Assembly (NCBI GenBank): GCA_947172415.1
Contig: OX359198.1
Location: forward strand, 3,751,401 to 3,815,400
Source of the DNA: Chondrosia reniformis
Taxonomy: Eukaryota > Porifera > Demospongiae > Chondrillida > Chondrillidae
Length of the DNA: 64,000 nt
Reading direction: 5' to 3'
Part shown: positions 23,092-47,740 of the stretch, in pieces
Layout of the letters: each line of letters begins with the position of its first letter
Numbering within the stretch: position 1 is the stretch's first letter
Notes under the pieces: model-generated
Told to the model about the DNA's origin: nothing
Databases searched by the model: none
What the model saw: the letters and a program-made list of their open reading frames with translations, nothing else
Program-made: the position numbers and the translations under genes

Positions 23092-23154
23092 CAAGTAGTT
23101 CGAGTTAAAAAAACTCGTGGGGCTGCCGCCCCCCGAATGAACTCGAACTACTTG
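23092..23154 (-). repeat. 3' terminal hairpin of the giant element
   Basis: A 63-bp imperfect palindrome: outer arms CAAGTAGTTCGAGTT and AACTCGAACTACTTG-type, inner GGGGCTGCCGCCCCC core. Equivalent hairpins close the elements at 2159-2220, 7273-7334 and 51062-51122. The GGGGCTGCC core is the inverted partner of the GGCAGCCCC block near the other end of these elements. Confidence 0.85.
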
Positions 23155-24100
23155 GATCCCTTCGGTCGCTGTGTCCTTCTAATTACCAATCATGTTCATG
23201 CTACTAGTATACTGTAATAAACACTTCTATGATCAATCATCAACTAATAAGTACATTAGAAACAGAAAAAAGAGTGTGAGGGAAGAATATTAGCTCTTGG
23301 TACAATGAAGCCTCTGTTTTGCAGGAACACTGAAGTATGCACTAAAATGACTTGTAAGTTAATAGTGCAATAAATGAGATATGATAGATATGGTATGGGT
23401 ATGGTTTCTTTCTTTGGTTCCAAACATGTTTATCCAGTGCTTCTCAGAAATGCATTAATTTGTTGGAAAGAATATGTGGATACCTGAAGGAAAATAGTAC
23501 ACTTACAAAGTAACAGCACTTCGCAGTAATGTGCATGAGTTAATTAGCAATCATATTATATATACACTTACTTGTTAGACTTGCTAATGAAATGCTTGCT
23601 CACTCCTCATGTCTCCCCAATGCAGGTCTAAGTTATACGTTTATAGTAATTCAAAACATGTATCTTCTTCTATATTATTTTCCCTCTAGTTGTGAAGGTA
23701 AGGAGTGACCTGCAATGATGTGAGAACAATTTTAAGTTTGTAAGTGAAAGCCAAATGGGGTATACAATTCAAGAAATTGACTTACCAGAAAGCTTTTAAA
23801 TTGACTGCTCCATGCATCCTTGCTTCTTAGTAAAGCACAAAAAGGACACTAACTGTGACACTGCCAACCACACATCAGAGAAAAAATTCAAAATTACAAA
23901 GCACATATGAACTCACACTAACACCCTGTATTGCTGTAGAGTGTGACTTATTGTCAAAATATATTGTTGATGTAGGACTTTTAAAAACACTTAGAAAATA
24001 TATTATATGTAAAGTACAAATATACTTCAGTGTGTAGAAAGTAGCCTCCAATACTAAATTCTATATAACTGGACATCACCACGTCAGCCTTCTCAGTCAC
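23155..24100. other. non-coding spacer between terminal hairpin and OTU region
   Basis: About 950 bp of AT-rich unique sequence. No conserved protein was recognised in either strand, and short frames such as 23855-24037 have no recognisable motif. By position it would be the 3' untranslated region of the minus-strand Helitron gene. Confidence 0.5.
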
Positions 24101-24179
24101 CACATTCTACCATTCACTTGCCTTGATACACAAACACTGCAACCGATGATGGTAGTCGGCACATTTGTGTATATCACTC

Positions 24180-25146
24180 TTCAGGAGCCCACTGTGACAT
24201 GAAGGTGGTAAATGGAACAAACCCTAAGGAACATTTTGCAGACACCATTGGAAGAATGGTAGTGAAATGGGAGGAATCCAAAAAATCCTAAAAGTGGAAC
24301 ATGCTCTTCTGGGACTGCATCAGAGCGAAAGCAAATACTGTTGTTCAACCACTTGTCTCTCATTTCAAACAGATTTTGCAATTCAGCAGGTGTGACATCC
24401 TGCTTAATTGGTTGGAGCTACTTTCCTTCATCTTGAAGACATCTGCTGTGAATTACACCATACAACCAAATGGACCTCTCCAAAATTATTGCCAGTGCAT
24501 GCAGATGAAATTGGTTTCCCCATGACTTGTCAGTGATCGAACTGTGAAGTAGTTCCAGCCACTGTACTTCTGCTGCTTTAGCAACTGAAGCGGCATCACG
24601 TTTCTGCAATGGTAGAAGTATCCTAGCAGTTGGCTGAATGACTTTTAGCATATGTTGTTGATGCACAATGAGGCTATAAGCGGTCACCATTCTCAAGTGC
24701 ATGGCACATGTACTGCTCTGTTCCACCAAGGGCCAAAGATAGCATATGATACATACAATTTCCACCTCCTTTAGTGCAAACTGGCATGTACTGTGACGTA
24801 AAAGCTGGAAAGACTTTGTCTTTTACTGCAACATCCACTTGATGGTGCATATTGCTGAAAGTTGCCCGAGAAGGACGATTGACCACTTTCAGAATAGTCT
24901 GTGATTCACTGTGATGACACTTTGACCACCTTACTATAGACTCCTATTCAAAGTGTTACTAGTCACTAGAGCTTCAAGTATTGTTTTCAGTGACAACACC
25001 AGTGTGTCAACATAGGTAATTGGGATGTCTGAATGAACAGACTGACTGCCATCCACTAATGGTTCCGATGTATGCTCCTTGCCATGTGTCCCTTTATCCC
25101 CAATCTTAACATACGATTGTGACATGCACTTGCCATTTTGTACCAA
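24180..25146 (-). pseudogene. OTU-like cysteine protease domain of the Helitron
   Basis: Segments in several frames. 25146-24934 is a linker. 24886-24674 has CTKGGGNCMYHMLSLALGGTE, matching the OTU catalytic block (D/G-G-N-C-L-Y/F.ALS..L.GT.), with C at residue 44. 24765-24418 has WGNQFHLHALA, the W-G-x-(4)-L-x-A-L-A block, and near 24250 HYH provides a possible catalytic histidine. OTU domains are known in animal Helitrons, C-terminal to or between Rep and helicase. At least three frame changes and stops make this copy inactive. Its position 3' of the helicase, same strand, supports one ancestral polyprotein. Confidence 0.72.
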
Positions 25147-25265
25147 AGCACTACTACCCTTTACTGCAGCACTTGATTTCTCCTTATTTTGACTACAATT
25201 TTGGACAAAATGACCTGATATTAGCTCCTTTTTTCTGAATCCTCACCACTATGAGCAGATTCTTG

Positions 25266-27246
25266 TCATAGCCTTACCATTTCCTCATGGACTCTCTTGT
25301 TTGCTGTCGTCTTCTTTGGCTGAAAGTTCAGGAGGGCCACTCCACTCAGTGTGCGCACACGACTAAGAGCTACATAGGCCATTCCAGGTTCAAATATATC
25401 CTTCCCTAAATCCATGACTGCTGCATCAAGTGACAATCCATGCACCTTGTGAACAGTTGCTGCCCAGCACAGATTCAAGGGAATCTGTGTTCTCTGCAGG
25501 AGTGTACCTTCCTTTCCATAGAAATGTGCAGAAATAGGCTGAATTGGTACAACATCCTGTTGCTCCAAGACAACTGGTACCTTTGACAATTTCCCCACAT
25601 TGGGATCTAAGAATCTCACATATACCTCTCTGGGTAATTCACCAGGTATACTCTGTAGCCTTGCATTTCTCGGCCACTTGAAGCCTAAAATTGTTCCTCT
25701 GGCACCATTCACCAAGCCATCACCACAGTTAATGTTTCTTCGCAACATTAATCTAGCACCAACTGCTAGCTTCAGTATATGGGGCAGTGCAGCACAGTCT
25801 TTATCATCTTGTGGAATGAGACGTTCAGGAACCTCATTGTATTTAATATTGGCATAAATTTGCCCTCGACTCTCTAATATTGCATGCTCTGCATCAATAC
25901 TATAGATTTGGCTGCTCTTTGCCAGACTTTTTATCTGCATTTCATTGTGCCCATCAACTGGTACCTTTGACAATTTCCCCACATTGGGATCTAAGAATCT
26001 CACATATACCTCTCTGGGTAATTCACCAGGTATACTCTGTAGCCTTGCATTTCTCGGCCACTTGAAGCCTAAAATTGTTCCTCTGGTACCATGATGGTAC
26101 TGTACGAGGATACAGTGTCAGAGCTGTATCAAAGGGGGAAGCCAGCAAATCCACAGTCCCACCCGAAACCAAACGGGTTTGCAGAACTTTCACATCTTCA
26201 TTGGTGTGCACGCCCATCCTGATCCGATTAAGTATCTCTGAGAATGAAGAATCATTCGGGTGACGCATGTTTACTTCAAGTTCAATCACCTTGAAGAAAT
26301 TCCTCCAAAGGTGTGAAGCCAGTCGCCCTGATGAGCGGCCAGGTTTCTGACTGAATATAAAACTACCGTTCACTGGAGAGAGCTTGTACAAGTCGCCCAC
26401 TGCAATGACATTCAAGTCACCAAAAATCTCATCATTGCCATAAATCTCACACAGTCGACTGTGAACTGACTTCAGTATCTGGTAAGACACCATACTGATT
26501 TCATCAATGATGATGGTGTGCACTCCTTGCCACAGATTCCTCAAGTCATGCAGGGCTAGGGCATTCAGCTGCAATTGATGAGCAGTTCTGCCATGCTCCA
26601 CCTGAAGCCGCAATGCTCTATGGATTGTGAGGCCTCCAATGTTGAAGGCTGCAACTCCGGTGGGTGCCATCAACATACAGGCATGCATCTCTTGACTCCC
26701 TGACATAGAACGTTCCATATGCTCTTTAATAGCCTTAATTACACGTGATTTTCCAGTGCCTGCTCCACCTGTCACAAACAGATGAAATGGTTCTGGAGGT
26801 TCGTGGCGTATTTTCATTCTGTGTTGGTGCAACTCACGAGTGTAATGCACAACAATGTCAAATGGAATACGCTGCTTTGTATTCAAACTTACCATGAGTT
26901 GCCTAAATTCTCTATCAGTAAGGGAGTGTCTACTGATGGCTCCAATGTCGTCATCATTGTCATTTAGTAGCATATGTTCTGCATCTATTGCAATCAGATT
27001 GTCATCATCAAGGCATGCTGGGTCCATGAAATGCTCTGGGTTCATCAACCCTCCTTCAGCCTCAATAAAGGGTTGTGCAGCATCCTCCCTTTGAGCCTGC
27101 TGTGCCATTGGGGCAACGACATCTTGGTAGGCATCATCTTCCAAGGCTTGTAATTGCACAACAGCCTTTTGGACTTCATCTGCAAAGGCATGATTGTGAG
27201 CATTCAAAACAACCATTTCTTCTTCTCGTACAATGTAAGCCTCCAT
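25266..27246 (-). pseudogene. PIF1-like helicase domain of the Helitron
   Basis: 5'-3' helicase moving the displaced transposon strand. ATG at 27246. Motifs in the first frame: GGAGTGKS (Walker A, residues 160-167), APTGVAA with LTIHRAL (194-212), IIIDEIS (Walker B, 245-251) and VGDLYKLSPV (283-292, K in place of the usual Q). The second frame (26003-25266) holds VGARLMLRRNIN, WAATVHKVHGLSLD and YVALSRVRTLSGV (motifs V-VI). Between the parts, a 137-bp direct duplicate (25955-26091) of 25571-25707 is inserted, shifting the frame after LYPRTV. The copy is therefore dead, though otherwise well preserved. Confidence 0.9.
25955..26091. repeat. 137-bp direct duplication inside the helicase gene
   Basis: Sequence starting CAACTGGTACCTTTGACAAT at 25571 and at 25955 runs in parallel for 137 bp with apparently one substitution (GGCACCA against GGTACCA). 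The extra copy lies between helicase motifs and breaks the reading frame. Confidence 0.9.
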
Positions 27247-27700
27247 TGCAGAAGAGTGACCTTCAACAGATCCTCAGGTTCCTTCCTCCAAGGGATGTAT
27301 AGTAGCAGCAAACTGTAGTAATAGTCATCACCATGACTTTCTACTGTCTGAACTGGGATTCGAAGACAGGCTTGCTTCCTTCTCAGACGGACCCATCCCA
27401 TGTCATTCTGCAACTGGTTACGAGGCTGTGCTGGTCCATTTCCAGCTTTCCCAACACCTCATGTATCTACATCATACCACAGTGCAAAATGTGCAAAGGT
27501 CATGCTTGCAAATTCTGGTGTGTCTGGTCTAGAGGAATATCTATCAAAGATACCAGGGGCAAAAATATCAGAGGAATCATCCTCCAATTCTAGCAATTCA
27601 GACCTACTCTTGAGTAACCTCGTTTTCTTCTCTGGTCTGGCAGTGTTAAGGAATACAACTTTTCTTGAATTTTCTTTCAAAGGCAAGTGACACAATCAAT
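27204..27700 (-). pseudogene. linker between Rep and helicase of the Helitron
   Basis: Two frames: 27695-27459 and 27413-27204. The first reads PLKENSRKVVFLNTARPEKK and a Ser/acidic stretch; the second has GDDYYYSLLLLYIPWRKEPEDLL, matching the conserved E.YY.SLLLL..PWR.E.DL block that precedes the helicase in Helitron proteins. A frameshift near 27420-27460 separates them and another joins the helicase frame at 27246. Confidence 0.75.
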
Positions 27701-27842: not shown

Positions 27843-29161
27843 TCACATGTAGGAACACACATATGCAGCTGTGCCATATACTGATCCAATCAATTGTATA
27901 TCCATATTAGCTTTCCATGCCTTCAGAAGGTGTGTATTGGATGGATTGCAGTTTTCTTCCCCTGCTGCTCTCTTCAAGACATAGAACCTGGACTTGTTTC
28001 CAGGATCATCATGGCTTTTCAGCCGTGTATCTTCTGACAAAGGTTGAGGAAAATCAAATCGGCAGTCTGCCAAATTTTTCTCCCTTCATGTTGCTTTCCT
28101 GCAAGTTGATGTATGATGGTGCTGCTGCACTCTCAACACCAAAGAACAATGTTCTTCATCTTTGCAACCATGTGTTGGAATATTTACAGAAATGTATCTA
28201 TCAATGTACTGTGCAGCAATCTGCCTGCCAGCTGTAGTATCTAAGTTTGGAGCATCCCTTATCCACCACATGGAATGGATATGTGGAGATCCCTCAACTG
28301 GAATTCAATTCTCCAAAAGTAGTCAACTACCTCACCAATAGGTTGCCCAGATCCTTTAATCACTTCCCTAAGGAAGCACTGAAAGCGATGTGCAAAATGC
28401 CTAGCTGTAACCACTGGATTTGTCCTCATCAGTTCTCTCCTCTCACTGGTTGATAAATTAGCTGCCTGTTCCTCTGACAGATTCTGACCCATACTCCTGC
28501 TTAGGCCTATCATCAAGTCTACCCAATTATTATCGTCAGCACTCAGTGTGACAAAGAATGTGGGAGGACCTAGGATGCGAAACATGGCAAATAGCTGGAT
28601 CTTTACTGAGTTCCAATAAGCTTGTGTGCCACGAATATCTCTCATGAAGCTATAACAATTTTCAAGTAAGTGAGGGTTATTTTCCAGGCGTCCTCGCAAC
28701 AAACCAACTGAGAGTAGCTCCTTCTCATTGGTTTCCTTGTTAGAGTTCTCGCATTGGCCTATTCTGAATGATCGCATCCTCATTGCAATGGAAATGCTGC
28801 TCTGCAACTTCAGGGCTTCTACAATGTTACAGGCCCAAAAGATATAAGCAGGATGACATGCCCATCTTGAGTCAGCACTAAACATTCTTGTTTGGAAATA
28901 TCCTAGAGGTGTAACTTTGACTTCTCTGATGGTGCCAAAACCATTTTCACCATTGGGGTAAAGGGTTGGAAAAGCCAACACTTCTAAATTAATTTGATTC
29001 TGAAATATACTTAGTGGTGTGGTTGTTACTCTCTGCAACTTATGTATCTGTTGTTTTATTGGTATACTACCTTGTATCAGGTCAATAGCCTGTACAACTG
29101 GCTGGAGAGCATCCAACCTAACAATTCCTGTTTCATCCATTTCTAAAATGTCTTCATTCAC
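27843..29161 (-). pseudogene. HUH replication initiator (Rep) domain of the Helitron
   Basis: Nicks and joins DNA during rolling-circle transposition. The frame 29161-28259 contains VLAFPTLYPNGENGFG, the block FFVTLSADDNNW and FWRIEFQLR. The HUH motif itself, PHIHSMWWIRDAP, lies in the next frame (28271-28086): one base appears lost in a G run near 28293. The tyrosine region, ANMDIQLIG...AAYVCSY, is in 28073-27843, giving the Y-x3-Y pair, followed by a TGA at 27845 where the family continues. HUH histidines and both tyrosines are thus present but split over three frames. Confidence 0.88.
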
Positions 29162-30093
29162 ATTTTCACCTCAGTGACGTTTTCTTCCTTATGGTTGAAC
29201 ATGTCTTCTGACATCTTAGTGATGGTGATGTCACCATACAAGGGGTTATGTTGCTTTAACCATTTCAAAGCTAGCATCACATTGGAGTATCGACAGATAT
29301 GGTAAATTGTATCAGGGACAGAGTCATTTGGTTTACTTCCAATAGAGTCTGGCTGCTGAATGTAAAGAATATCTTCACCACTGGGTAAACGAGGGAGCTC
29401 TGAAATGACACAGTCAACATTTGAGGGAAAGTTGATTACCTGGCCCCTAACAGCCCTTTGTCCACCCCTTGGCAAAATGATCATTTTCATGAAAACAGTC
29501 GCCTTTGAAATCAAACGCTGCTCCAATGTGTTTAGTCCAATGAACACTGAAGGGACCTCTGGTACTTTCATTTTATTAAACTGTGATCCTGGTGGAATTT
29601 TCTTTCTTTCCATAGAACTCTTGCACTTGTTACACAACCAAACACTTTCTATACTTTCTTGAACTGATTCATTCACGACAGTCAGTAGATCATTTGCCAC
29701 ATCACAGCTGTACAGGGCACCCAACTGCTCATAGCACAACCTTTCACATGAAAAACACTTATGGGTCGGCCCCTTAAGAATTGCTTTTTCAAACTTATAT
29801 AAGTAATTTTTCAACTTCAAACCTTGTTTTGATGGTATTGAACTCTCAAGTCTTGGTACTTGCACAGCAGATGCAGTAACAACACCAGACTCAACTACAC
29901 TTCCACCCACTTCCATGTCCACATCTTCAGACATTTCGCTGATAAGATTTTCCTTAGCAGTATCATCCAGGACTGAATCATCACTTTGGGTTGATTCTCT
30001 TTGAATTTCCTTCAAACTCTCACTCTCCAACCCGTCAGTGGATTCGTAAATTGAACTAATGCAGGTATTTGAAACAATGCTAGTACATGGCAC
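29158..30093 (-). pseudogene. DUF6570-like N-terminal region of the Helitron protein
   Basis: 311 residues. An acidic Ser/Glu-rich first third precedes a Cys-containing module: CFSCERLCYEQ, then WLCNKCKSSM, followed by PSVFIGLNTLEQRLISKATVFMKM, PRGGQRAVRGQVINFPSN and LPRLP. The order C-x2-C, C-x2-C, L...E..LI, RGGQ..V.G..INFP.N is typical of the region that precedes Rep in animal Helitrons. The indicated start is GTG and the frame is open upstream, so the real start was further 5'. A one-base shift near 29160 disconnects it from Rep. Confidence 0.75.
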
Positions 30094-30245
30094 ACTACTG
30101 GTTATTTCTGCTTCTGAGTTACACTTTACTTGCAGAAGTCGTTTTTACATCCTCCATGCTTGCATTCTTAATCTTGCTTGCTCTTTTTCTCTCTCCAATC
30201 TTAAAGTACTTTTTGTTTAGATTCATTAGTCAATCTTGTTTTCTT

Positions 30246-31127
30246 TCATTTGTTACTGCTGCTCAGTCTTGACTCCCGTTTTTTAGTCGATTCAGACTGC
30301 AACCTCTTCTTCTGATTTTCAGAGAGGGTGGCAAGTCTTGCAGCACGATCTTCATTGCTTTCTGACTGCAACCTCTTACTCCGATTTTCAGAGAGGGTGG
30401 CAAGTCTTGCAGCACGATCTTCATTGCTTTCTAAGTGCAACCTCCTACTCTGATTTTCAGAGAGGATGGCAAGTCTTGCAGCACGATCTTCATCAATTTC
30501 TGATTGCAGCCTCTTACTCTGATTTTCAGAGAGGGTGGCAAGTCTTGCAGCACGATCTTCATTGCTTTCTGACTGCAACCTCTTACTCTGATTTTCAGAG
30601 AGGCTGGCAAGTCTTGTAGCACGATCTTCCTTAGTTTCTGAGTACAGCCATTTCCTGTTATTTTCAGTAAGTTTAGCAAGCCTTGCAGCACGTTGCTCCT
30701 CAGTCTCACATTGCAGCCGCCGTCTTTGGTTCTCTGACATTTTTAATAACCTTATACAGTGCTCTTCGACTGTTTCAGCATCTAGCCGCTTTCTCTGACA
30801 TGCTGACAGCATGGCCAGTGTAGAACATTTCTTTGTTTCACTGTCCATGTATTCTTGTCCTTCAATTCCAGTTTGATCCATAACTGGATTAACAGCTAAT
30901 ATAGGCATGCTCAGTTCATCATGACTCTCATTCTGACGTGGGCCTGGGTTCAATTCAACATCTCCACCCTGCAATAGCCGTATACTTATTGCACGAGCTA
31001 AGCGAAAGTTACCCTTACAGTAGCACCTTCTGCGTAGCAGGTGATGCAATGTACACCTGAACCATTGCCTTCGTTGATGGATGCACATATTCTTGCAAAA
31101 TACAAAAACCAAATGATAATGCTTCAT
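30246..31127 (-). CDS. Helitron N-terminal protein with 2A motif and 23-residue repeats
   Basis: First ATG at 31127; the frame is open further upstream. A basic Cys/Arg-rich leader of about 50 residues ends in LLQGGDVELNPGP (30939-30977), an exact match to the 2A ribosome-skipping consensus (G-D-V-E-x-N-P-G-P), which would release the leader between G and P. After it comes a linker and about seven tandem 23-residue repeats with the core SENQ.KRLQSE..EDRAARLA (about 30290-30760). These are Arg/Glu-rich, likely helical and similar to repeats at the start of other animal Helitron proteins. A stop at 30246 separates it from the DUF6570-like frame. No stop interrupts this piece. Confidence 0.75.
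   Translation of the reverse strand: MKHYHLVFVFCKNMCIHQRRQWFRCTLHHLLRRRCYCKGNFRLARAISIRLLQGGDVELNPGPRQNESHDELSMPILAVNPVMDQTGIEGQEYMDSETKKCSTLAMLSACQRKRLDAETVEEHCIRLLKMSENQRRRLQCETEEQRAARLAKLTENNRKWLYSETKEDRATRLASLSENQSKRLQSESNEDRAARLATLSENQSKRLQSEIDEDRAARLAILSENQSRRLHLESNEDRAARLATLSENRSKRLQSESNEDRAARLATLSENQKKRLQSESTKKRESRLSSSNK
30939..30977 (-). other. 2A ribosome-skipping motif (LLQGGDVELNPGP)
   Basis: Thirteen codons that fit the 2A consensus at every defining position: D-V-E-x-N-P-G-P preceded by GG and a leucine-rich segment. 2A motifs are known from several RNA virus groups, trypanosome and animal non-LTR retrotransposons and sea-urchin NLR proteins. Its location near the protein N-terminus, before the repeats, mirrors retrotransposon cases. 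Confidence 0.85.
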
Positions 31128-31179
31128 TGGAATGTCATGGTACTCCAAGCAATTATTTGCAAAATGACCATGGTGAGGC

Positions 31180-31683
31180 TCATATGTTACTAACCAAAAG
31201 GATTGTCAAACCATCAAAGTTCATTTCATTCAGGTCAGTGTACATTTTTATTTCATGAATCATACTGTAAGTAGAAGTACATATTTCAGATTGCCAAACA
31301 CAAGACAATTCATTCGAGATACAGTTTGAGTGACCCCAGTATGACGGTGCAGGACCCCAGCAGTAGGGTTCAGGACCCCAGCAGTGGGGTTCAGAACCCC
31401 AGCAGCGGGGTTCACGACCCCAGCAGCGGGGTTCACGACCCCCGCGGCAGGGTAATTGAAAAGATAAAATGTAAGCAAATCCTCTGTATGTGGTTATATC
31501 CGGTTTATACACACAAAGTGATTCATTTGCAAAGTTGGTGCATCCATTGAGAGCATTTTGCATCATATGTGTACTTCTTACATTGTCATTAATTGGTTCC
31601 TTGAGACACCCGTTGGATGGATCTAAATAAAGAAAGGTAGTTGACAAACAGAAGGTCAACAACCCAAAAATCCACCTAAACAT
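31180..31683 (-). CDS. putative secreted protein with EP(R/H/Y)CWG repeats, unknown function
   Basis: 167 residues from ATG 31683. The N-terminus MFRWIFGLLTFCLSTTFLYL has a charged start and hydrophobic core like a signal peptide. Residues about 85-115 are five tandem seven-residue repeats of the type REPRCWG, encoded by a 21-bp minisatellite (about 31326-31450). The rest has scattered cysteines and no domain that I recognise. It lies directly upstream of the Helitron N-terminal protein on the same strand, 53 bp away, so it may be cargo, a 5' exon or chance. Whether it is expressed is unknown. Confidence 0.4.
   Translation of the reverse strand: MFRWIFGLLTFCLSTTFLYLDPSNGCLKEPINDNVRSTHMMQNALNGCTNFANESLCVYKPDITTYRGFAYILSFQLPCRGGREPRCWGREPRCWGSEPHCWGPEPYCWGPAPSYWGHSNCISNELSCVWQSEICTSTYSMIHEIKMYTDLNEMNFDGLTILLVSNI
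31326..31450. repeat. 21-bp minisatellite
   Basis: About five to six copies of a unit like GTTCACGACCCCAGCAGCGGG. The purine/pyrimidine composition (G/C-rich) contrasts with the AT-rich surroundings. Because the unit is a multiple of three, frames stay open through it on both strands. Confidence 0.88.
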
Positions 31684-33090
31684 AATACAAAACTAATTGA
31701 GTGTGGCTTAGCTTTGATCTGTTCCATGTAGGTATATTTCCTGCCTCTCTCTTCTGGCCTTTCTGATGTCACCAGGACCTTTTATGTGGAAGGTACATAT
31801 TGAGATAAAGCATTGTATAAATAAATATTACAAATCTATGTTAAATTAAAAAGGAATATATATACTTCCGAAAGTACAGTTAACTGTATTTGTGTTAGAT
31901 GAAACATGATAGGTGTTAAATGACAATGAATTTATTTAACTGTATTTTTGAATATCATTACAACTGCCGAAATGTCGGTGAAAAGTTGTTGTGACGAAAA
32001 TCGTTTAGTGCTTAGTCTAGAAGAACAGTTGGACAACGCCGATGGTTTCATAGTCATCAGTAAGTGTTGCTCTACAAAACTGTCGGCCTCGGTATCAATT
32101 CCTTCTTCATTAGTCAAGTTATGACCAAATTTGTGCTTGTTGATTACACCTAATAGTGACATTTTCTTTATTATCTCAAGAAAGGAAAGCTGTATTAAAA
32201 CCGAGGCCGACAGATTTTCAATTTAATTTATAAGGATTCCAATGATGCACAAACCTTATGAGTGTTGTAAATGGGTGCTAATTCAGAGGAGAATTTTGAA
32301 GAAAACGTTTATTCGATACCCTTCAAAATTTGTAAGACTATTATTCTCACCATAAAGACTTTAAATATAATATATTAAATATTCTCTGAAAGGCATTAGT
32401 TATTCCTATGCTGAGAAATTAACTTGTAAAAGCATTAACGATTTAACTCAATTTAATGTGGAACAACCATATGGCGCCTGATTGGAATGGAAGTCATGTG
32501 TTCTGGAACGGTTTTCACGAGGAGTCACATGTTCGTATCGAACGTTTCCTGGAATGGCAAAGGAAACTGTTCTGTTCTCTCTGCTCATGCAGGATAGTGA
32601 AGTCTGCGAACATTCTCGAAATGAATCATTCGAGGAAGGTTAGTTAATATCTAATAAGTATTCAGATAATGCCCGGGACGTTTAATAATCCTTGTGCTTA
32701 TTTAAGATTAAGAAAACATAAAATGTATTCCTCTGTTTCAGCGATTTAGCTAGAGTTTAAGCCTGTCACGGTATATTTATTTCTCCTAAATTTTAGCCCT
32801 GCAAGGTTAATGATAGGCACATCCAAGTAAATCTCTCCCTTGGAAAAGTTAATTGCAATATGAACATTGTACATACACGGTTAAATTTGTTGTTAGAAAC
32901 AGCTCCGGTGTTTGGTATTTTAATATTAAACAATTCTCCATAACTACTAATTTTACAAGAAAACAAATACTTAATAAATGATAAACGTGTTTTAAACTGC
33001 TGTAAATTTCAATTAAAATTTATTTAAACCTTTGTAAGTATGTATGAGTATTATTAACAAAGTGTTTCATTTATCCGTGATGTCTGTTTG
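31684..33090. other. AT-rich region with two small unassigned frames
   Basis: No recognised gene. A 76-residue frame (32162-31932, minus, ATG start, Ser/Thr-rich) and a 63-residue frame (32456-32647, plus, Trp/His-rich start MWNNHMAPDWNG, ending near a possible donor AAG/GTTAGT) have no known motif. A 14-bp inverted pair, CTGTCGGCCTCGGT (about 32079) with ACCGAGGCCGACAG (about 32199), brackets the start of the first frame. This may be the 5' flank and promoter area of the minus-strand genes; that is inference only. Confidence 0.4.
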
Positions 33091-34567: not shown

Positions 34568-34599
34568 ACTTCTCTAGATTTCAGACTAATTTGTATAGT

Positions 34600-35685: not shown

Positions 35686-35954
35686 GTAGTCACAAAAGTT
35701 ATATATGAGTTGAGGTCTTCTTGGTACTTCCTTCATGCACTTTGATCTTTATCTTCAGTTCTTTGTATATTCAAAACTCCTCCTATTTTAAAATGTACAC
35801 ATATATATAAATATTTAAGGAATTATAATCCATGCATAAGGGCATATACTTCATGATATGTAGTAGGACCAATGAGGATACAGGTGTGTCATGCTTTTTA
35901 GGAGATTTAGCATGTAGAATAAATTAAATGTTTTTTTATATATAGGAAGAGGAA

Positions 35955-36926: not shown

Positions 36927-38050
36927 TCTGTCTACTTCTTCCCCTTCAATGTAAACAGGGAGATGATGTGGAAGGTGCTGGAAGATTATGGAATTAGAGG
37001 AAGCTTGGTGAAGGCAGTCAGATCAATGTATGTGAATTGTGAGGCATGTGTGAAAGTACAAGGAGGCACATCGGACTGGTTCAAGGTGGAGCAGGGGGTG
37101 AGACAGGGTTGTGTAATGTCCCCGTGGCTCTTTAATGTGTACATGGACCATATATTGAGGGAGGCGAAGGAGAGGTTTAGTAGAGGAGTCAAACTGAAAG
37201 ATAGAAATGTGCAGTTTCTCTTATTTGCGGATGACCTAATGCTAGTGGCTGAGAAAGAGGAGGATGTGGAGAGCAATCTAAGGATCTTAGATGGTGTGAT
37301 GGCAGAGTGGCAGATGAAGATAAACTGGGGGAAGACTAAGGCAATGGTTGTGAAAAGAGGAGGAGGTCCATGCAATGTATCGGTAAAGGGGGAGAAGATA
37401 GAAGAAGTGAAAGTGATGAAGTATTTAGGGGCAATGTTCAATGAGGAGGGGTCATGCGAAGATGAGGTTGATAGCAGAATAGGGCTGACATGCAGAACCA
37501 TAGGGGCACTGAGAAAGGAGGTTGTAGATCGTAAAGAGCTAAGCAAGGCCACAAAATTGAGAGTATACAATGCTGTGGTGAAGCCTACACTACTCTATGG
37601 CAGTGAAACGTGGACACTGCAGAACAGGCACAAGAAGAAGCTGCAGGCAACAGAGATGAGATACCTGAGGAAAGTTGAGGGTGTCACAAGAATGGACAGG
37701 ATGAGAAGCGATGACATCAGAGAGAGACTGAGGCAAGAAGATGTTATAGATACTGTAATAAGAAAGAAGAAGCAATGGATGAAGAAGATTGAAGAGATTC
37801 CAGAAGAGAGACTAGTGAAGACGGTGTATATAGAGGAGCTGCCAGGAAAGAGACCAAGAGGGAGACCGCGGAAAAGATGGGAAGATGACTTGAATTAATG
37901 ATAAAACTTATACAGAACTGTGCATGCATATATCTAAGTTCGTATATCTTTATTTTAAAGCAACAGGTCCAGTAGGTATTATTACAATATGTATTCTGGC
38001 TACCTCCTGCATAGGAGAAACGCTGTTGTGATTGATTGATTGATTGATTG
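35958..38050 (+). mobile_element. RTE/jockey-like LINE with 5' inversion (twin priming)
   Basis: The 3' half is on the plus strand (36961-38050) and the 5' half is inverted (36960 down to 35958). The two halves are consecutive parts of one RT: the inverted part ends ...MIMVCVDLEKA and the plus part begins MMWKVLEDYGIRGS, so only a few codons are lost. An 11-bp target duplication, AAGAGGAACTA, flanks it at 35947-35957 and 38051-38061. The 3' tail is (TGAT)n (about 38030-38050). This is the structure expected from twin-primed target-primed reverse transcription. Confidence 0.9.
36963..37898 (+). pseudogene. C-terminal RT half of the LINE
   Basis: 311 residues, fully open. It has VRQGCVMSPWLFNVYMD (motif B), FLLFADDLMLVAE (catalytic FADD), KTKAMVV, VMKYLGAMFNEEGS, LLYGSETWTL and the C-terminal GKRPRGRPRKRWEDDL signature typical of RTE-like and related LINEs. 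The ATG at 36963 is an internal methionine of the original polyprotein, not its true start. Clade choice is by motif style. Confidence 0.88.
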
Positions 38051-38339
38051 AAGAGGAACTAACGGATTTCGAAGATGAACTGGCAGAAAAAAATCTCAAC
38101 CCCCACCCCCACCACCACCAAAATCTCCACCCAAAACCAAAACCCCGAGAATTTGCAACCCCCACCCAAACCCCACCCCGAAACCCCACCCCAGCCCAAG
38201 CTTAAAGAGAGGGCTAGAGGGTGGAGCTGCAGCAAGTAAGGGAATATTTCTAATAAAATACTGTAAATTTATATTATTTTCTCTGTGTAGCTGCCAATTC
38301 TACAACTTCGGTTTTAGAATTGTATGCCACAAGTGCAAA

Positions 38340-38696
38340 CAAGTATTTCGAGTTTAAAAACTCAAACTACTTGGCCGCATCGTTGGGATTTAATATATAT
38401 ATATATTCGTAATACTAATGATTGAGGACGATTAAGTGTCCTGAACTTTATAAATAACGATGGAAAAGCTTCATAAACTAAAGCTTCCTGAATGCCGCCA
38501 TTTGCAAAAACGATGTATTGACATATAAATTAAGTGTAACAATAGTTGGGTATGAACTCGTATTATACATATATCGATGTATAAAATAAGTGTTATAATA
38601 GTTGCGTATCAACCCGTATTATATATATAGATATATATATATATATATCTTTCCGTAACATGAAGCCATACAACGTAATCGGCAAATGAAAACAAT
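38340..38696 (-). mobile_element. non-autonomous Helentron-like element, copy C
   Basis: Starts CAAGTATTTCGAG with a shortened terminal hairpin lacking the GGGGCTGCC core, followed by ACTTGGCCGCATCGTTGGG, the CATTTGCAAAAACG block, the two 55-bp segments, an AT run and CCGTAACATGAAGCCATAC. The right end diverges after GAAAACAATATA, so the GC hairpin is missing or altered. It appears inserted in or beside an exon of the possible gene at 35569-38895. Confidence 0.72.
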
Positions 38697-38995
38697 ATAA
38701 GGGAAGGCTCCCCCAGAAGGATCTCAAGGGAGTGGCCGCAGACGTGGCCGTAAGGGAGGGAGGCGTGGGAGGGGTCCATACCCTCGTAATGTGAGTTTAT
38801 ACATTTCATTTATATATTAACCTGACACTTGTTTTTCTCTTCTGCAGACACACAACAACATGTTCAATTCAGGATCTAATATAACTTTTAATTAATCACT
38901 AGTATAATAACACTTTGTAACACTTTTACTTAATTAATTGTATTTAAGTTTTAATTAATTATACAATGGAACCACAAAATGATAAAGGACTACTT

Positions 38996-39262
38996 TACAC
39001 TCCTACAACTTTAGATACACTTAGAACGCCTCTTTCAAGCTACACTCAAACAACGTCAGATACACTTAGAACGCCTCTTTCAATCTACGTATACTCATAC
39101 AACTTTAGACACACTTAGAACGCCCCTGTCAAGCTACACTCATACAACTTTAGATACACCTAGTACACCTCTGTCGGGCTACAGTCGTACAACTCTCAAA
39201 CACACGTGTAAGTTCTATCAAGCTGCACTCATTCAAATTTAGACACACATAGAACGTCTCTG
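38996..39262. repeat. 45-bp tandem repeat array, copy D
   Basis: About five to six units of the type AGAACGCCTCTGTCAAGCTA + CACTCATACAACTTTAGATA + CACTT. The same unit forms the longer array at 44466-45330. Downstream sequence (about 39240-39720) is shared with 45300-45790, so array and flank were copied together. Confidence 0.88.
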
Positions 39263-39464
39263 TTCAAAATTTGTACACAATCAGTACTATGGGCGGCACA
39301 GGTAGAATTACAATAACAACTTAGCACTGACAGATGTTACACAGATCGTAGACATTAGAACGTCTTTCTAGACTGACATAGGCCTAGTATAACAGTAATT
39401 ACTTAAATCAAAAGAGGATTCATAGATATTGACCAAACTTACTTGTCTTTTTCATTGCGCTTCG

Positions 39465-39814
39465 AACTGAAAGTACTTGGCCCCTTCGTTGGACTTCAAT
39501 ATGGCTATCTAGTAGTATTCAAAACGATTCTGGACGGTTAAGTGTCCTGAACATGATAGAAAAGCTTCAGCTTCATAAAGGCCACCATTTGCAAAAACGG
39601 TGTATTGACGTAGAAATTAAGTATTACAATAGTTTCGTATGAACTCGTATTATACATATTAAGTCGTATAAAATAAGTGTTATAATAGTTTCGTATTAAT
39701 TCGTATTATATATATGTAGAGTGCAAGTTATATTCATATATTATGTATATGAATTTGCACTGTATAACCGTATCATGAAGCCATACATAACTCGTGTTAT
39801 GAAAACAATATATA
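39465..39814 (-). mobile_element. diverged Helentron-like block D, interrupted by the Ginger-like transposon
   Basis: Resembles the body of copies A-C (AGTGTCCTGAACATGATAG, CATTTGCAAAAACGG, two copies of the 55-bp segment, then CCATACATAACTCGTGTTATG), but with a degenerate hairpin end. A 43-bp hairpin replaces the simple AT run at 39720-39762 (AGTGCAAG...TTGCACT arms). The Ginger-like element is inserted at 39815 in GAAAACAATATA. Confidence 0.65.
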
Positions 39815-40515
39815 TGTTCCCTGCTTTCTATGGATTTATGCAATCTATAGAATGCGCAACGCAATCTAGGAATTCCTACAATGCGGGCCAATCTATAGAT
39901 TGTCGCGCATTCTATAGATCCGTAGAGACGTTCGATTCTATATAGGAATAGGGCGAGTACGTTCAATTCTATATAGAAAGAGTACGTTCGATTCTACAGA
40001 AAGTACACGTTCTATAGGGAGAGTACGAGTATACGTTCGATTCTATATTCGAAAACGCCGACAAAATTAAACTTTAAAAAATCACACACTGTCTCAAGAA
40101 TGATCCTTGTACAAGTGGAAACTGTCCCAAGTTCAAGCACTGGGTCAGAAAGGTTTTTCTTTAATGATTTATGGAGTGCTAAGGCTCAAAGATGTATTGT
40201 GCCTGCCAGCTGCGCAGCAAGGAACAAGCTAAGATAGCTATACTAAATTGTAGAGGTATATAGACCTATGTGCACTGAGCAATATATATGCAATATGTAT
40301 ATTTAGCTATAGCTAGCTGCATTGAATAGTGATACCTATGCACTGCTTACTGATAATACAAATAATACTGTCTTATTTAAACATTAAGTATACAATAAAA
40401 TACTACCTTATTTAAACATTGTCTCTATGAAAATGAATGAAACTGATATGAACACGGCTAAGAAAAGAAACAACACTATGGCAAATGCTATAGAGACAAT
40501 AAAATCAGAAGCCAG
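39815..40515. other. left subterminal region of the Ginger-like element
   Basis: TIR, then repeated ACGTTCGATTCTATA and GAGTACG blocks (about 39925-40060), which may serve as transposase binding sites, then about 450 bp without a recognised gene. Confidence 0.6.
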
Positions 40516-40570
40516 TACTGTAACAAGTGTTAACTTGAACTACCAGTTTAAGTTAACACTTGTTACAGTA
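40516..40570. repeat. 21-bp perfect inverted repeat at the transposase stop codon
   Basis: Arms 40516-40536 (TACTGTAACAAGTGTTAACTT) differ from exact mirror at no position from 40550-40570. The right arm contains the last codons (YCNKC) and stop of the PHD finger, so the end of the coding sequence is duplicated in inverse orientation 13 bp downstream. An RNA hairpin would form at the mRNA 3' end. A second 11-bp inverted pair, ATTGTCTCTAT (40418) and ATAGAGACAAT (40490), follows. Confidence 0.9.
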
Positions 40571-41203
40571 CCATGGCTCTTCGCTATTTTCTAATGCTGC
40601 TTTAGGTACATCCACACATGGTATGTGGTACCATTCGTCACATTTACAACACTGAACCATGCTGCTGTCTTCCGGCATTCTGCAGTCGCAAAAGACAGTT
40701 ACTGTGTCCAATGCTCTGATGACTTTATTGGGCGTTCTCTCTTTCATGATGGGGAACATGGTCAGCTCTCCTTTTTGCAAGCACTCATGCAGGTGATTTC
40801 TCATTTTGCCTTGATCAAAGAGTTGCTTCTCTGGCAAACACCCATTTGCAAGACATGTGGCAAATGCCAATGAAAACAAGCCACAATCATATGTACCTCT
40901 CTGCATCTGAACATCAATGAAGTTCAGAGTGATCTCTTTATTATCTGTATGGACAATAGCTGCAACTTGTTCTTTTACACACGAGCTGGCGCTCATGCAT
41001 AGGCTGTCATAAACATTCACTGTGCCATCCACTGCCTCAATTGTGCTTATAGTAAGCCAATGGGCATGTCCATTGTTGACAATCTGGATGAAATCTCCCT
41101 TCTGGATATCAAAGGCACACATCTGCCCAATGCAAGGAGGTTGAAGACCATGTGCACCAGTTTGCCTCTGAAATAGCCAGCAAGAATGTTGTCTGTCACC
41201 CAC
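40554..41203 (-). pseudogene. Ulp1-like protease with C-terminal PHD finger (3' part of transposase)
   Basis: 216-residue open frame. The catalytic triad of a C48 (Ulp1) cysteine protease is visible: HWL (H48), VYDS (D66) and Q-x4-DCGLF (Q101, C107). The C-terminus is a C4HC3 PHD finger: C172-x-C174, C185-x2-C188, H193-x2-C196, C213-x2-C216, ending ...EEPWYCNKC and stop. Ulp1 proteases cleave SUMO-like tags; PHD fingers read histone tails. In a transposase this suggests SUMO editing and chromatin targeting, which is inference. Joined to the upstream frame by a frameshift near 41150. Confidence 0.85.
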
Positions 41204-42184
41204 GCTGTTGGATGCAGAAAGATTCCTTGATCTGCGGTTGTGAGACAGACATCCTCAACTTTCACCCACTTATCAACTTTCTTCTTAGTAGATGAGCTCT
41301 CATTTGTGTCCGGTTCGGATGTCAAGTCAATCACTGTGGAAGTCTGTGTTGTACTCTTGTGCTGGCTCTGTCGTTGCTTCAAAATGAGATTTTTGGCAGT
41401 TGATAGGCAACTGACTACCTTTCGTCTTTTGGCTGGTGTGTCCATTTGTGATGGTGGGCAATTAGAGCATGATAAACCCTGATGACATTTTGATGTGCAG
41501 GGTGACCCAAGTTTTCGGCAAGAACACCTTAGACTTTGACATTCACTCTTGCAATTGCAGCGGCCGACTTCAAACTCGTTGGGTGAATTCAATTTCTTTG
41601 TTGCCTCTCTTAGTGACAAAACAGGATCCTTCTTCCACTCTTCTACTGTAAGTGGAAGGATTCCATGATAGAGTTCCAGGTCACTCTCACCAAAGCATGT
41701 CTTAAGCACTCCACAAGAGGACCTATATACAAGGTATATAGTAATACTGTATGAAGTAATATGACACAATAGCATGTACACTACATGATCAAACAAGAGG
41801 CACATCTGCATTGTAGAGCTGTACATTAAACACCTATATATTATCGCCAGTATAACACTAACAGTAAGCATTAACATTAAACACTAGTGCGCTGTGGAAA
41901 GCATAAAATATATATTCTACCAAACTTACCTGAGCCGATACAAGTGGTGCACTTTCCCAAGGCGTTCTACTACAACACAAGGTAGCCAATGACGGTCGGT
42001 TGAGGCACGGTCAATCCTTGGGATCCTGACACTGACAAAGTTCCCAGGACAAAAAACATTTTCTTTTTTCTCTTGCCTTTGCAATACTTTAGCTTCATTT
42101 TCTCAGCATTGGCCCTATACCTTTTATCAGCTTCTTCACGCAACTTTCTGTGCTTCTCTGGTGATGCAAGTGCTCCACAAATAC

Positions 42185-42475
42185 CATCGCCATCACCTGA
42201 GAATGTTTCTCCATCAAGCCCCTCATCAACACTACTATCATCTAGTACAGTCCCACAGTCATCTGCTCCACCAGTACCATCGCCATCACCTAAGAATGTT
42301 TCTCCAGCAAGCCCCTCATCAACACTACTACCATCTAGTATAGTCCCACAGTCATCTGCTCCACCAGTACCATCGCCATCACCTAAGAATGTTTCTCCAG
42401 CAAGCCCCTCATCAACACTACTACCATCTAGTACAGTCCCACAGTCATCTGCTCCACCAGTACCATCGCCATCAC
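42185..42475. repeat. 93-bp coding minisatellite in the transposase linker
   Basis: Three near-identical 93-bp units encoding GDGDGTGGADDCGT and VLDGSSVDEGLAGETFL on the minus strand. The plus-strand Pro/Ser-rich frame over the same unit is antisense and not a gene. Confidence 0.9.
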
Positions 42476-43502
42476 CACCTGATCTTAGCTCTTCCTCCGT
42501 GTCAAGAAAGTCCACCACATCCTCTTCCATGATGCGCTTACCCTTTGCTCATGGAAAAATGATTTGTCGAGGAGGCTGCCCAAACACTAGCTCATAAGTG
42601 GTAGCTTTCATGGCACCATGAACAGTTGTGTTCAGCTGATCTAAGAAGGATAGAAATTATTTCAAAGTAACATTGCATTCCACAAAAACTATTTGTTTTA
42701 GCATAAACAACAAATAAGAGAATACTTACACTGTACGAAAGAGAGCCATTCAGACCAAGGTGGGTAATCACCCTCATCATACTCGTAGATTCGCACTCCC
42801 AAAAGCTTCTCAACCATATGATTACCCTGCTCAACCAGCCCCTGGCACTTGGGATTTCGTGGGCGACCATTGATAATGGTCACTTCACCAGGCCACTCCC
42901 TCACCACACTTTCAACAACTTCGTTCACAAATTCGTGGCCATTGTCTGAATGTAGGATCTTGGGCACACTAACATAGGAGAAAACATGGTTCTGGAGATT
43001 CAGTACAACTTCTGCTCCAGATTCTCTACTTAAAGGGAATAAAAAGTGCATTTTTGACCAATGATCCATGTAGTGACCTATCCATTTGTAGATGCCGTCA
43101 GGTCGATGTCTCATGTCTATAAGGTCGATCTGAAATGAAAATATTGACACAAGAGAGTGAGTAACTGCATGACACCAAAGTTGGCCAAGCAGCTGCATCA
43201 CACAGCAGGCACGTAGTACCTACCTGTCCCCTAGTCATGAACCCAGATGAGATGATTGGTTTCAATGGTGCTCTTGTGTTTTGTGGCTTGCTCGTGTGAC
43301 ATACCAGACAAAGCTCCACAAACTTGTCAATGGCACATCTTGGTATGCACTCATACATCTTGCTGATCTACAGAAATGCATGGTTGTCTTTGTTTACAGC
43401 CATTACATGACTTTAAATGTTTTTTTTTTAATTGTAGGAATTCCTAGATTGCGTTGCGCATTCTATAGATTGCGCAAATCCATAGAAAGCGCGGAACATA
43501 TA

Positions 43503-44460
43503 TAGCTGATTAATTAATAGGATGTTTATAAAAAACAGTAGGGTGTATATAATAAACAAAGTGTATTTATACTAAACAAAACGAGAGAAAATAATGCTTA
43601 CTCGACAGCTGTATTGCAACTACAGCATTTAACTTAGCGGAAGTTCTTCTTAGGGGTAGATCGAAAAGGGATCTGATTTTGACCTTACTGATCGGTTATT
43701 CAACCTTATAGATTTAACGTTTAAGAAGATATTTTAAACTTATAGTCCTACAGTGAGAATTACGTGACGTTCATATAGCTTGAAACTGAACTTTCATCTT
43801 TGCAGTCTACTGTAAAGACGAAGGTTATCACCAAAGTGATAGTAGGTACCGCCAAAGGCTCATTTTGTGCGCCACATGAACTCCATATCGATTTATTAAT
43901 TATTATTTATTTGTTTGTCTCATTTAACATAAGTTGACGTTCAACACTAACCAGCAAGCAAAGATGGATACCAAGACTTTGTTAGATAGTCTTTAATGCA
44001 TATCCTCATTACCAAAAATTAGTGAAGTCTCGCACACAGAAACACTTCCACGCTATTGCCAACCATAATTATAGATTTAAAGAATGTCTACATCAACTAA
44101 GCACTGCAAGAATACTACATAAAAACACATGCAGTTGTATATATGTCATACACGCTAGGGATAAGCTAAAGCGCTAAGCTACATAGCCCTAGGCCTTCTT
44201 ATAATTCATTCATGCTACTGATAAGCTTAGCTCTTTTTCTACTTAAAGTGTTTAGCTTGAGTAAACGTAACATGGAAATGAGTCGCTCAAAAGACTCGCA
44301 CATAGAAACGCGTATCCATCCATTCCACACGTTACTGATAATAATGTTAGCTTGTAAGGTTTACACCATTCAAGCTACCCCCAACCCGACTTATAATGTT
44401 AAATAATTTAGACTGTATTGTAATTCCTGGCTCATGATGGTGTCCTCGTGACAATTAATA
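43503..44460. other. AT-rich spacer, nothing recognised
   Basis: No conserved coding sequence. A 64-residue plus-strand frame at 44212-44406 has no motif. It begins directly after the TATA duplication of the Ginger-like element and ends at the 45-bp repeat array. Confidence 0.5.
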
Positions 44461-44465
44461 TCCAC

Positions 44466-45330
44466 TAAGCCACACTTGTACAAACTAAGACACACGTAGA
44501 ACGCCTCTGTCAAGATACACTCATACAACTGTAGACACAGGTAAAACACCTCTGCTAAGCTACACTTTTTTACAACTTTAGATACACTTAGAACGCCTCT
44601 TTCAAGCTACACTCATACAACTTTAGATACACTAAGAACGCCCTTGTCATGCTACACGTGTACAACTCTAGCCACACATAGATCGCCTCTGCTAAGTACA
44701 ACTTCAGACACATGTAGAACGTGTCTGCTAAGTACAACTTTAGACACACGTAGAACGCCTCTGCTAAGCTACACTTGTACAAACTTAGACACACGTGAAA
44801 CGCTTCTGTCAAGCTGCACTCGAACAACTGTAGACACACGTAGAACGCCTCTGCTAAGCTATACTCACACAACTTTAAATACACTTAGAACGCCCCTATC
44901 AAGCTACACTTCTACAACTTTAGATACACTAAGAAGGCCCCTGTCATACTACACGTGTATAACTCTAGACATACGTAGAACGCCTCTGCTAAGTACAACT
45001 TTAGACACACATAGAACGCATCTGCTAAGCTACACTTGTAAAAACTTAGATACACGTGGAACACTTCTGTCAAACTACACCCATACAACTTTAGATACAC
45101 TTAGAAACGCCTCTATCAGGTTACACGTGTACAACTCTAGACACACGTAGAACGCCTCTGCTAAGTACAACTTTAGACACACGTAGAACGCCTCTGCTAA
45201 GCTACACTTGTACAACTGTAGACACAGGTAGAACGCCTCTGCTAAGCTACACTCGTACAACTCTCAGACACACATGGAATAGTTCTATCAAGCTGCACCC
45301 GTTCAAATTTAGACACACATAGAATGTCTC
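44466..45330. repeat. 45-bp (and 36-bp variant) tandem repeat array, copy E
   Basis: About twenty units related to AGAACGCCTCTGCTAAGCTA + CACTTGTACAACTTTAGACACACGT; a shorter 36-bp form lacks the CTACACTTG part. Unit lengths are multiples of three, so long frames are open on both strands without being genes. Flanking sequence to about 45810 is shared with the block near 39240-39720. Confidence 0.88.
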
Positions 45331-45534
45331 TGTTCAAAATTTGTACAAAATCAGTCCTATATACTGGCTGCACAGGTAGAACTTCAATTACAAAAATAAC
45401 TTAGCATTGACAGATGTTACACAGATCGTAGACATTAGAACATCTTTCTAGACTGACATAGGCCTAGTATTATAGTATTTACTTAAATCAAAAGAGGATT
45501 AATAAATATTGACCAAACTTACTTGTCTTTTTTC

Positions 45535-45812
45535 ATTGGTCTTCTAACTGAAAGTACTTCGGCCCTTCGATGGACTTCAATATGGCTATCTAGTGGTATT
45601 CCAAACGATTATGAAAGCTTAAGTGTCCTGAACACAATAGAAAAGCTTCAGCTTCATAAAGGCCGCCATTTGCTAAAACGATGTATTGATGTATAAATTA
45701 AGTGTTACAATAGTTTCGTATGAATTCGTATTATACATATAAGGAGGTATAAAATAAGTGTAATAATAGTTGCGTATTAATTCGTATTATATATATATTC
45801 ATATATGTATAT
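45535..45812 (-). mobile_element. diverged Helentron-like block E
   Basis: Matches block D and the body of copies A-C (TTAAGTGTCCTGAACA, GCCGCCATTTGC, TAAGTGTTACAATAGTTTCG and its second copy). It stops in an AT run at about 45812, where the fold-back repeat starts; the missing CCGTAACATGAAGCC end may be the one at 47665-47740. That would make the sequence from 45.5 to 47.7 kb one 5' terminal region split by insertions. Confidence 0.6.
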
Positions 45813-45816
45813 ATAA

Positions 45817-46618
45817 CCAAGTACTACACAGTACAAGTTACAAATTTATGAGGGCCAAGTGACTATACAATATTAAAATTACAAGCAAGTACTAGTACGT
45901 GCAGTGCAAGTTACAAATTTAAAGAGATCCAAGTGACCCCTAGGATAATCAGTATTTTAAACAGTACAAGACTTTAGTCACACTAGTACTGTCGCAGGCT
46001 TTGAAATCCTCAACTACTGCATAGAGAGTAGTAGTTGATACAGATCATCCAATTGCAAGGTGGAACACATGGCCTACCAATTACCTTTTCACACCTTAGT
46101 TTAGACTGAAGATGATGCATCTGCATGCGATATATCAACAAAGGTTCCAGTTTTAAAGGGGTCTCAGCTAATAACCACAGCAGATTTGATTTGCCTTGTG
46201 AGGGAGCTAAGAACACGGACGGTTGGTAGGCCATGTGCTCCACCTTGCAATTGCATGATCTGTATCAACTACTACTCTCTATGCAGAAGTTGAGGATTTC
46301 AAAGCCTGCGACAGTACTAGTGTGACTAAAGTCTTGTACTGTTAAAATACTGATTATCCTAGGGGTCACTTGGATCTCTTTAAATTTGTAACTTGCACTG
46401 CACGTGTAGCTAGTACTTGATTGTAATTTTAATATTGTACAGTCACTTGGCCCTCTATATTTATATATATATTGACTAAAGTCTTGTCCTGTTTAAAATA
46501 CTGATTATCCTATGGGGTGTAACTTGCAATGCATGTGTAGCTAGTACTTGATTGTAATTTTAATATTGTATAGTCACTTGGCCCTCATAAATTTGTAACT
46601 TGTACTGTGTAGTACTTG
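45817..46618. repeat. fold-back (long inverted) repeat of about 260-bp arms
   Basis: Left arm 45817-46080 and right arm 46223-46618 are reverse complements, for example CATGGCCTACCAA (46068) with TTGGTAGGCCATG (46223) and CCAAGTACTACACAG (45817) with its complement ending 46618. The right arm is longer because about 130 bp (GACTAAAGTCTTGT...CACTTGGCCCTC) is duplicated in it. The loop is 142 bp with no gene. Probably a MITE or fold-back element; no target duplication identified. Confidence 0.88.
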
Positions 46619-46791
46619 ATTGTAATTTTAATATTTTATATATTTACCAGTAACTTTCACTAGGTAGTGTACTTGAGTGTACTGATTAGCCAGCAAAGTA
46701 CTTCAACATTCACTATGAGCAATTTCGTTATGAGATTCCACTGTACATGTATGTACACATGGAAAACGTACACACATGGATAAGAATAGAG

Positions 46792-46920
46792 CCTTGTTGA
46801 ACATCAGAAACAGAAATTTACTAATTCTGGACGTTTCAACCCGGAGGTCTTCATCAGTAATACAGGAATGGGAATATCCAGTAGGAAATCAGTAAATTCA
46901 TCTTGCTGACGCTCAACAAG
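46792..46920 (-). ncRNA. possible hammerhead-like motif in a Penelope-type remnant
   Basis: Minus strand 46857-46831 reads CTGATGA, a GACC-TCCG-GGTT stem and GAAACGT, the hammerhead core order with exact CTGANGA and GAAA blocks. It is enclosed by a 15-bp stem: CTTGTTGAGCGTCAG (46920-46906) with CTGATGTTCAACAAG (46806-46792), 13 of 15 complementary. Such cores are common in Penelope pLTRs. A cleavage site was not confirmed by eye. A 73-residue frame across it is not a gene. Confidence 0.35.
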
Positions 46921-47650
46921 GTTTATTCTCATAATGATCGCAACAACACTCCTAATTCCTACGCATGGACATGTAAAAATATTAACAGAGCTTAAATTAC
47001 CAAAGTAATACGGTCGACCAAACAAATTCAGTATTTCACATCAAGATAGGAAAAACTCTGCCTCAAACTTGATGGGGACGTATACAAAAACACTTTATCT
47101 AACCTTCGCTACAACTCGCCTGTTCGCTAGCTCCTTCTCGTAGGAGAGCGTCGACTCATCATAGCCGTTCACAAAGGGATAATCTTCTTTAGCAAAGAGA
47201 CGGTGACATTTTCGCCACATCACAAGATTCACCAAATGCGTAAGGAGCGACATACCAGAGGTGTTGGTGACGCACTAGAGAAACATCACAATACATCACC
47301 AGATTGCGCAATCGAAACTTTGAATTCTTTATTATATCTTGATTATTTTGCTCATTTAATTAAGCAAAACTTGGCCAGACGTTTGTCATACACATGTACC
47401 ATGATATATGTCGGTTTCACAGTTATCTGACCAATTGAAAATTTTTACTAATATAACACTTGGTTTCAATATAAATTTTCTATAGCTTTTCTATAGTTCT
47501 ATGGCATTTTATATGCAGACTTTGTCCTCTGTTTTCTACCAAACGGAGACCTAAATGAAAAATCCCTTAATTAAAAATGAGCCATATGACTTATTTATAT
47601 TATATTATTTATTTATATTATATTATATTAGATTACCTTAGTATATTGTA
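46921..47650. other. AT-rich spacer before the right terminus
   Basis: No recognised gene. A plus-strand 75-residue frame (47203-47430) has no motif. It ends with TATTGTAACTTGTACTGTATA, which resembles the ends of the fold-back repeat and precedes the conserved CCGTAACATGAAGCC terminus. Confidence 0.45.
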
Positions 47651-47654
47651 ACTT

Positions 47655-47740
47655 GTACTGTATATATCCGTAACATGAAGCCATACATAAATCGCGTTAT
47701 GAAAACAATAGAGGAGGCTGCCTTTGACAGCCCCTAAAAA
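47655..47740 (-). repeat. 5' terminus of the giant element
   Basis: About 85 bp matching the end of copies A and B: CCGTAACATGAAGCCATACA, GAAAACAATAGAGG, the GGCTG-CCTTTGA-CAGCC hairpin (47716-47732) and CTAAAAA. Satellite resumes at 47741. The hairpin is imperfect compared with copy A (TTTGACAG for TGTGGCAG). Confidence 0.85.

Follow-up and report, generated by a model that had tools for sequence, protein, structure and literature searches.

The DNA analysed here, referred to as the window, is a 64,000-nucleotide stretch of the genome of the demosponge Chondrosia reniformis (GenBank assembly GCA_947172415.1, contig OX359198.1, positions 3,751,401 to 3,815,400). Within a 13-bp satellite, it contains what is very probably a single Helitron2/Helentron-like element at 23092-47740, which spans 24,649 bp on the minus strand with its 3' end on the left and its 5' end on the right. 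The last satellite base is 23091 and the satellite restarts at 47741, leaving the boundaries as they were first read. The strand orientation of the satellite flips where the element is inserted and a second time near 48.39 kb (22454-23065, 47739-48391 and 48394-60473). The window also holds an inverted 1.5-kb pair, at 14481-15993 and 62465-64000, whose members are 89.8% identical. A PTEN-like exon gave weak matches to PTEN structures, the best with E 0.024.

Both termini carry hairpins. The 3' terminal hairpin (23092-23155, minus strand), identified by folding and genome matches, folds strongly (-19.4 kcal/mol, z -7.96), while the 5' terminal 80 bp (47661-47740, minus strand), which read TTTTTAGGGGCTGTC inward, form a weaker hairpin (-6.1 kcal/mol, z -2.87). 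An asymmetric terminal inverted repeat is present, with GGGGCTGTC placed 6 nt from the 5' terminus and its inverted partner, GGGGCTGCC, starting 27 nt inside the 3' terminus. In most copies compared, the 5'-end repeat is GGGGCTGCC rather than GGGGCTGTC. Alignment confirmed the earlier observation that these ends equal those of two short elements, at 2159 and 6931-7334. Identity is 93.8% between the left end (64 bp) and the ends at 2159 and 7334; for the right end it is 93.8% over 81 bp with the end at 2570 and 92.7% over 82 bp with that at 6930. The marks of canonical Helitrons (Helitron1), namely 5' TC, 3' CTRR and insertion between A and T, were not found at the compared ends, and an Rfam search returned no match.

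The left part of the element is a protein-coding core. Because its Rep, helicase and OTU-like frames run leftward on the minus strand, 23092 is the 3' side, in agreement with the first reading. For comparison, ten further copies were fetched by their left end and two by a block at 31-36 kb described below. The encoded protein order is a 2A-like motif, STPR repeats, DUF6570, Rep, helicase and an OTU-like region. The first three, recognised by motif, frames and domain search, occupy 29158-31205 (minus strand), with the 2A-like motif GGDVELNPGP directly ahead of the STPR repeats (31205-30246, minus strand). DVELNPGP occurs in 9/13 sequences, preceded by GG in six and GR in three, and from the 2A consensus we take it to be a putative 2A peptide. 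The Rep region (28259-29170, minus strand) matches Helitron_like_N with E 1.2e-26 in the window and 1e-30 in copy C5m3107. Rep motif 2 (FWR ... GSPHxH) has the GSP form in seven of the 13 sequences and the full GSPHxH in five, and the frame of the window copy breaks at this motif. Two overlapping frames encode a PIF1-type helicase (25266-27273, minus strand; E 1.3e-23 in the window and 1.6e-25 in C5m3107), a region with a 138-bp internal repeat (25571/25955). The OTU-like C-terminal region (24181-24943, minus strand), with its GGGNCMYH motif (6/13 sequences), was recognised from frames and a weak Pfam match, below the cut-off both in copy C1p3910 (E 0.012) and in the window (E 0.028).

The coding frames of the window copy are broken, and a single open frame across the core was found in none of 11 sequences (ten copies and the window). 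The longest uninterrupted stretch, 1052 aa, is in C1p3910, followed by one of 962 aa in C5m3107. A crude dN/dS estimate, taken from codons that differ at a single position, stays below 1 in all 15 pairs of six chosen sequences (0.35-0.93). An AP endonuclease was not found among 15 core frames of the window, six of C5m3107 and one of C1p3910; it may have been lost or have decayed.

Beyond the core, a block at 31454-35957 was delimited by comparison with relatives and a frame scan; no gene was recognised in it. It is common to the relatives C13m, C14m and C3p, with gaps, up to 35393 or further. None of its 18 frames of at least 55 aa exceeds a Pfam cut-off, and weak matches below it (DAGK_prokar, 0.034; EED insertion, 0.0047; Dis3l2_C_term, 0.028) were set aside. 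One piece of the block (31864-32480) matches 27 other genome places at 80-86% identity and is probably an older nested repeat.

Four nested insertions account for 7,983 of the 24,649 bp, leaving a remainder of about 16.7 kb, and three of the four are missing at the corresponding places in relatives. The first is a LINE fragment at 35958-38049 whose front part is inverted. It has RVT_1 matches on both strands (minus, positions 12-78; plus, positions 80-203) and a 12-bp target site duplication (TSD), GAAGAGGAACTA, at 35946-35957 and 38050-38061. Twin priming leaves the start of the reverse transcriptase inverted relative to the rest, the pattern seen in this LINE. At the LINE site, C3p has 364 bp of other sequence. 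A HINE-like copy with a shortened hairpin follows at 38340-38716 (plus strand), recognised by its end match; the same place is uninterrupted in C3p, confirming the initial impression that this piece is a separate non-autonomous copy.

The largest insertion (39816-43497, minus strand) is a Ginger-like DNA transposon with terminal inverted repeats (TIRs) of about 65 bp, an apparent 6-bp ATATAT TSD and other copies in the genome. It is absent from C13m, C14m and C3p. Its Ulp1/C48 and PHD matches exceed the Pfam cut-off, and its integrase core lies just below (30.9 versus 32.6 bits). These domains and the TIRs are shared with Ginger1 as characterised in the available excerpt of PMC2836005. However, Ginger1 has a 4-bp CCGG/CCGT TSD and a TGTNR terminus there, whereas the TIR here begins GTTCC and the apparent TSD is the 6-bp one. 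The fourth insertion is a 1.83-kb element (45829-47660) with 15-bp TIRs, CAGTACAAGTTACAA, at whose site C5m3107 has a single TIR copy.

The 5' side of the element is doubled. An inner 5' module (38996-39815) consists of a 45-bp array and a copy of the 5'-terminal region (39268-39815) that is without the terminal hairpin in all four copies compared, two of which are probable duplicates. A spacer (43498-44464) that is repeated at many genome places separates it from a second 45-bp array and outer 5' module (44465-45809), delimited by comparison with relatives. In C5m3107, the outer module runs directly into the right end. The suspicion that the right end belongs to a nested copy is thus not borne out, and the more general suspicion of nesting was right for the middle of the element and wrong for its right end. 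The inner junction is crossed by 22/43 rows (query included), most of which extend no more than about 25-45 bp on the module side. The idea that the doubled 5' module marks the long lineage alone was rejected on this count; together with the many places that hold the spacer, it indicates that the doubled region is older than the long lineage.

The pair of ends recurs throughout the genome. A 309-bp left-end query is covered over positions 1-303 or more in 30 of 40 scored places. The 40 left ends used for pairing, 33 from one match set and seven from another set of 40 rows, are not all independent insertions; three partial rows that lack the hairpin and are absent from the 33-end set were left out. 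Among the matches listed (100 of 185 right ends), at least 18 of the 40 are followed downstream, within 30 kb and at distances of 4.3-24.6 kb, by a right end on the same strand, and none by one on the opposite strand; the other 22 have no partner among these matches. Of the 18 copies paired in this way, that in the window is the longest. Upstream within 30 kb, among the same matches, six left ends have a same-strand and seven an opposite-strand right end; right ends also occur on HINE copies, which are short, and the local density of ends is high. The left ends are clustered as well: 39 of the 40 (contigs C1-C14, one on C12 left out) lie at relative positions 0.23-0.60 along their contig, with a standard deviation of 0.084 that was reached in 0/20000 uniform draws. 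Of 100 satellite places listed from 10,478 (C1-C5 only), most occupy comparable zones, but one cluster, at C3 7.0 Mb, does not. These positions suggest pericentromeric DNA.

Among the ten copies fetched by left end, the right end was found in six, at 11.2-19.2 kb and within the 20 kb fetched, and was not found in the 20 kb searched for each of the other four. Long core pieces are about 88-96% identical to the window copy. Six of the ten have a nearly identical left flank and probably arose by duplication of a single insertion. The right flank is common to C14m and C3p, which were counted as one insertion and are missing the left end; both have the same order of core remnant, block, inner module, spacer, array, outer module and right end.

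The cleanest evidence comes from C13m, a relative of 19.2 kb that has the 31-35 kb block in common with the window and contains core, block, inner module and right end. Its joined flanks matched 67 genome rows, 40 of which cross the junction. At base level, the empty site reads TTAATTAAAAAATGGCG in all four aligned loci (L029-L032), and the filled site reads TTAATTAAA, with the element ending TAAAAA and followed by TGGCG. C13m is thus inserted in an A run, and comparison with the four empty sites shows no target duplication beyond that run. The host repeat at these loci is dispersed, about 0.9 kb long, with inverted ends of about 180 bp and 40 matched places.

For the window copy itself, the first-pass annotation had pointed to an unoccupied satellite site near 51.2 kb. 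The joined flanks do have their best match, among the satellites tested, at 51124-51422 (plus strand, score 356). This rests on satellite similarity and is weaker evidence than the site in C13m; the self-similarity of the satellite made controls necessary. When random satellite pieces of the same orientation (48.4-60.3 kb) were joined, 3 of 52 joins reached at least 356. With the right flank fixed, only one of 1000 random left pieces of matching orientation did so, from a pool that included satellite adjoining the true left flank. The site is probably the correct one, though no proof. A search within the window for an empty site of the HINE at 2159 gave no match.

We consider it very likely that 23092-47740 is one decayed Helitron2-type rolling-circle transposon, of which about 16.7 kb is inherited and inside which four other transposons lie. 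The recurring end pair and the clean empty site of a relative uphold the original proposal of a single rolling-circle element with these two ends and this orientation, lying in satellite. Transposition would start with a nick made at 47740, the 5' end, by the minus-strand Rep-helicase; unwinding by the helicase would proceed leftward, and strand transfer would stop at the 3' hairpin at 23092. The transferred strand would then enter an A/T run without target duplication. Nicking and strand transfer are proposed here from Rep-helicase homology and the hairpins. The inherited part would comprise the 8.4-kb protein-coding core, the 4.5-kb block and the doubled 5' region. The LINE, the HINE-like copy and the two TIR elements would be later insertions, and the coding frame would have decayed. 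These insertions presumably arrived after the element had landed here, although they could also predate its landing.

Other explanations for this arrangement can be envisaged. The inner 5' module (39268-39815) and the HINE at 38340 both lie inside the span, as would be expected if two or more independent elements abutted, the left one with a 5' end near 31-39 kb and the right end supplied by a neighbouring or nested copy. We regard this as unlikely: the inner module is hairpinless wherever it was compared, the right end is continuous with the outer module in C5m3107, and in C13m a single insertion, matched by a single empty site, holds the core, the block, the inner module and the right end. 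Satellite-mediated recombination, or misassembly, could also have joined unrelated pieces, and both the satellite flanks and the probable segmental duplicates of this element family, which are common here, lend themselves to such a composite. Yet the order of pieces recurs at C13, C14 and C3, and C13m sits in a non-satellite repeat with its empty site resolved to the base, making a composite origin very improbable.

The same low standing applies to a giant gene-carrying Helentron with captured host genes at 31-39 kb. The block was indeed inherited with the element, but its frames all stay below the Pfam cut-offs, on which ground host gene capture at 31-36 kb was rejected, and the reverse transcriptase frames belong to a LINE with its own TSD. 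Short spliced exons could escape such a scan. The "extra genes" initially suspected here are instead a nested LINE (36-38 kb) and a block devoid of passing frames.

Comparison with known systems places the element within a known kind. Part of PMC5148889 describes Helitron2 elements by hairpins at both termini together with an asymmetric inverted repeat, and Helentrons by an additional endonuclease. The terminal hairpins, the asymmetric inverted repeat 20-40 bp inside the 3' terminus, the Rep-helicase with no endonuclease found and the insertion into T-rich DNA all agree with that account of Helitron2. The OTU-like C-terminus, STPR repeats, 2A-like motif, doubled 5' region and inherited length of about 16.7 kb differ from it.

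In Helentrons, an AP endonuclease is fused to the C-terminus and an OTU domain is often present. Placement of the protein by comparison with the published Rep motif shows a likeness to this group, as described in the available portion of PMC4067079, in Rep motif 2 (FWR and GSPHxH). It extends to palindromic subterminal inverted repeats, A/T-run insertion without TSD and more numerous short HINE partners. Ends and Rep motif thus look Helentron-like all the same. However, the endonuclease was looked for in the frames scanned and not found, so the strict label "Helentron" is not supported and Helitron2 is the safer name. Proto-Helentron-Pi from Phytophthora infestans, in the same portion of PMC4067079, likewise has a Helentron-type Rep without endonuclease and a length of about 14 kb, but it has Helitron-like termini (3' CTAG, insertion between A and T) that are absent here. 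Nor is the length a record, because maize Helitrons reach up to 39 kb, as stated in the excerpt of PMC6431247. The kind is known; it is the doubled 5' region and the gene layout that are unusual.

The doubled 5' side may reflect the bypass of a dead inner 5' end, and unequal exchange between the 45-bp arrays would serve equally well. Tentatively, and with more doubt than confidence, we suggest a Helitron2 lineage that dropped the endonuclease or never had it and that places its RepHel-OTU protein behind a 2A-like recoding peptide. Such a lineage would grow on its 5' side, with the hairpinless inner end bypassed for the outer one and the intervening DNA made mobile.

In summary, the analysis separates what the element carried from what landed inside it, and a rolling-circle element of 19 kb is documented at base level as one insertion in this genome. 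Should the 2A-like motif of this RepHel protein prove functional, it would add a new translational feature to the group. The retained hairpinless inner 5' end gives direct access to the question of whether DNA is gained on the 5' side of these elements.
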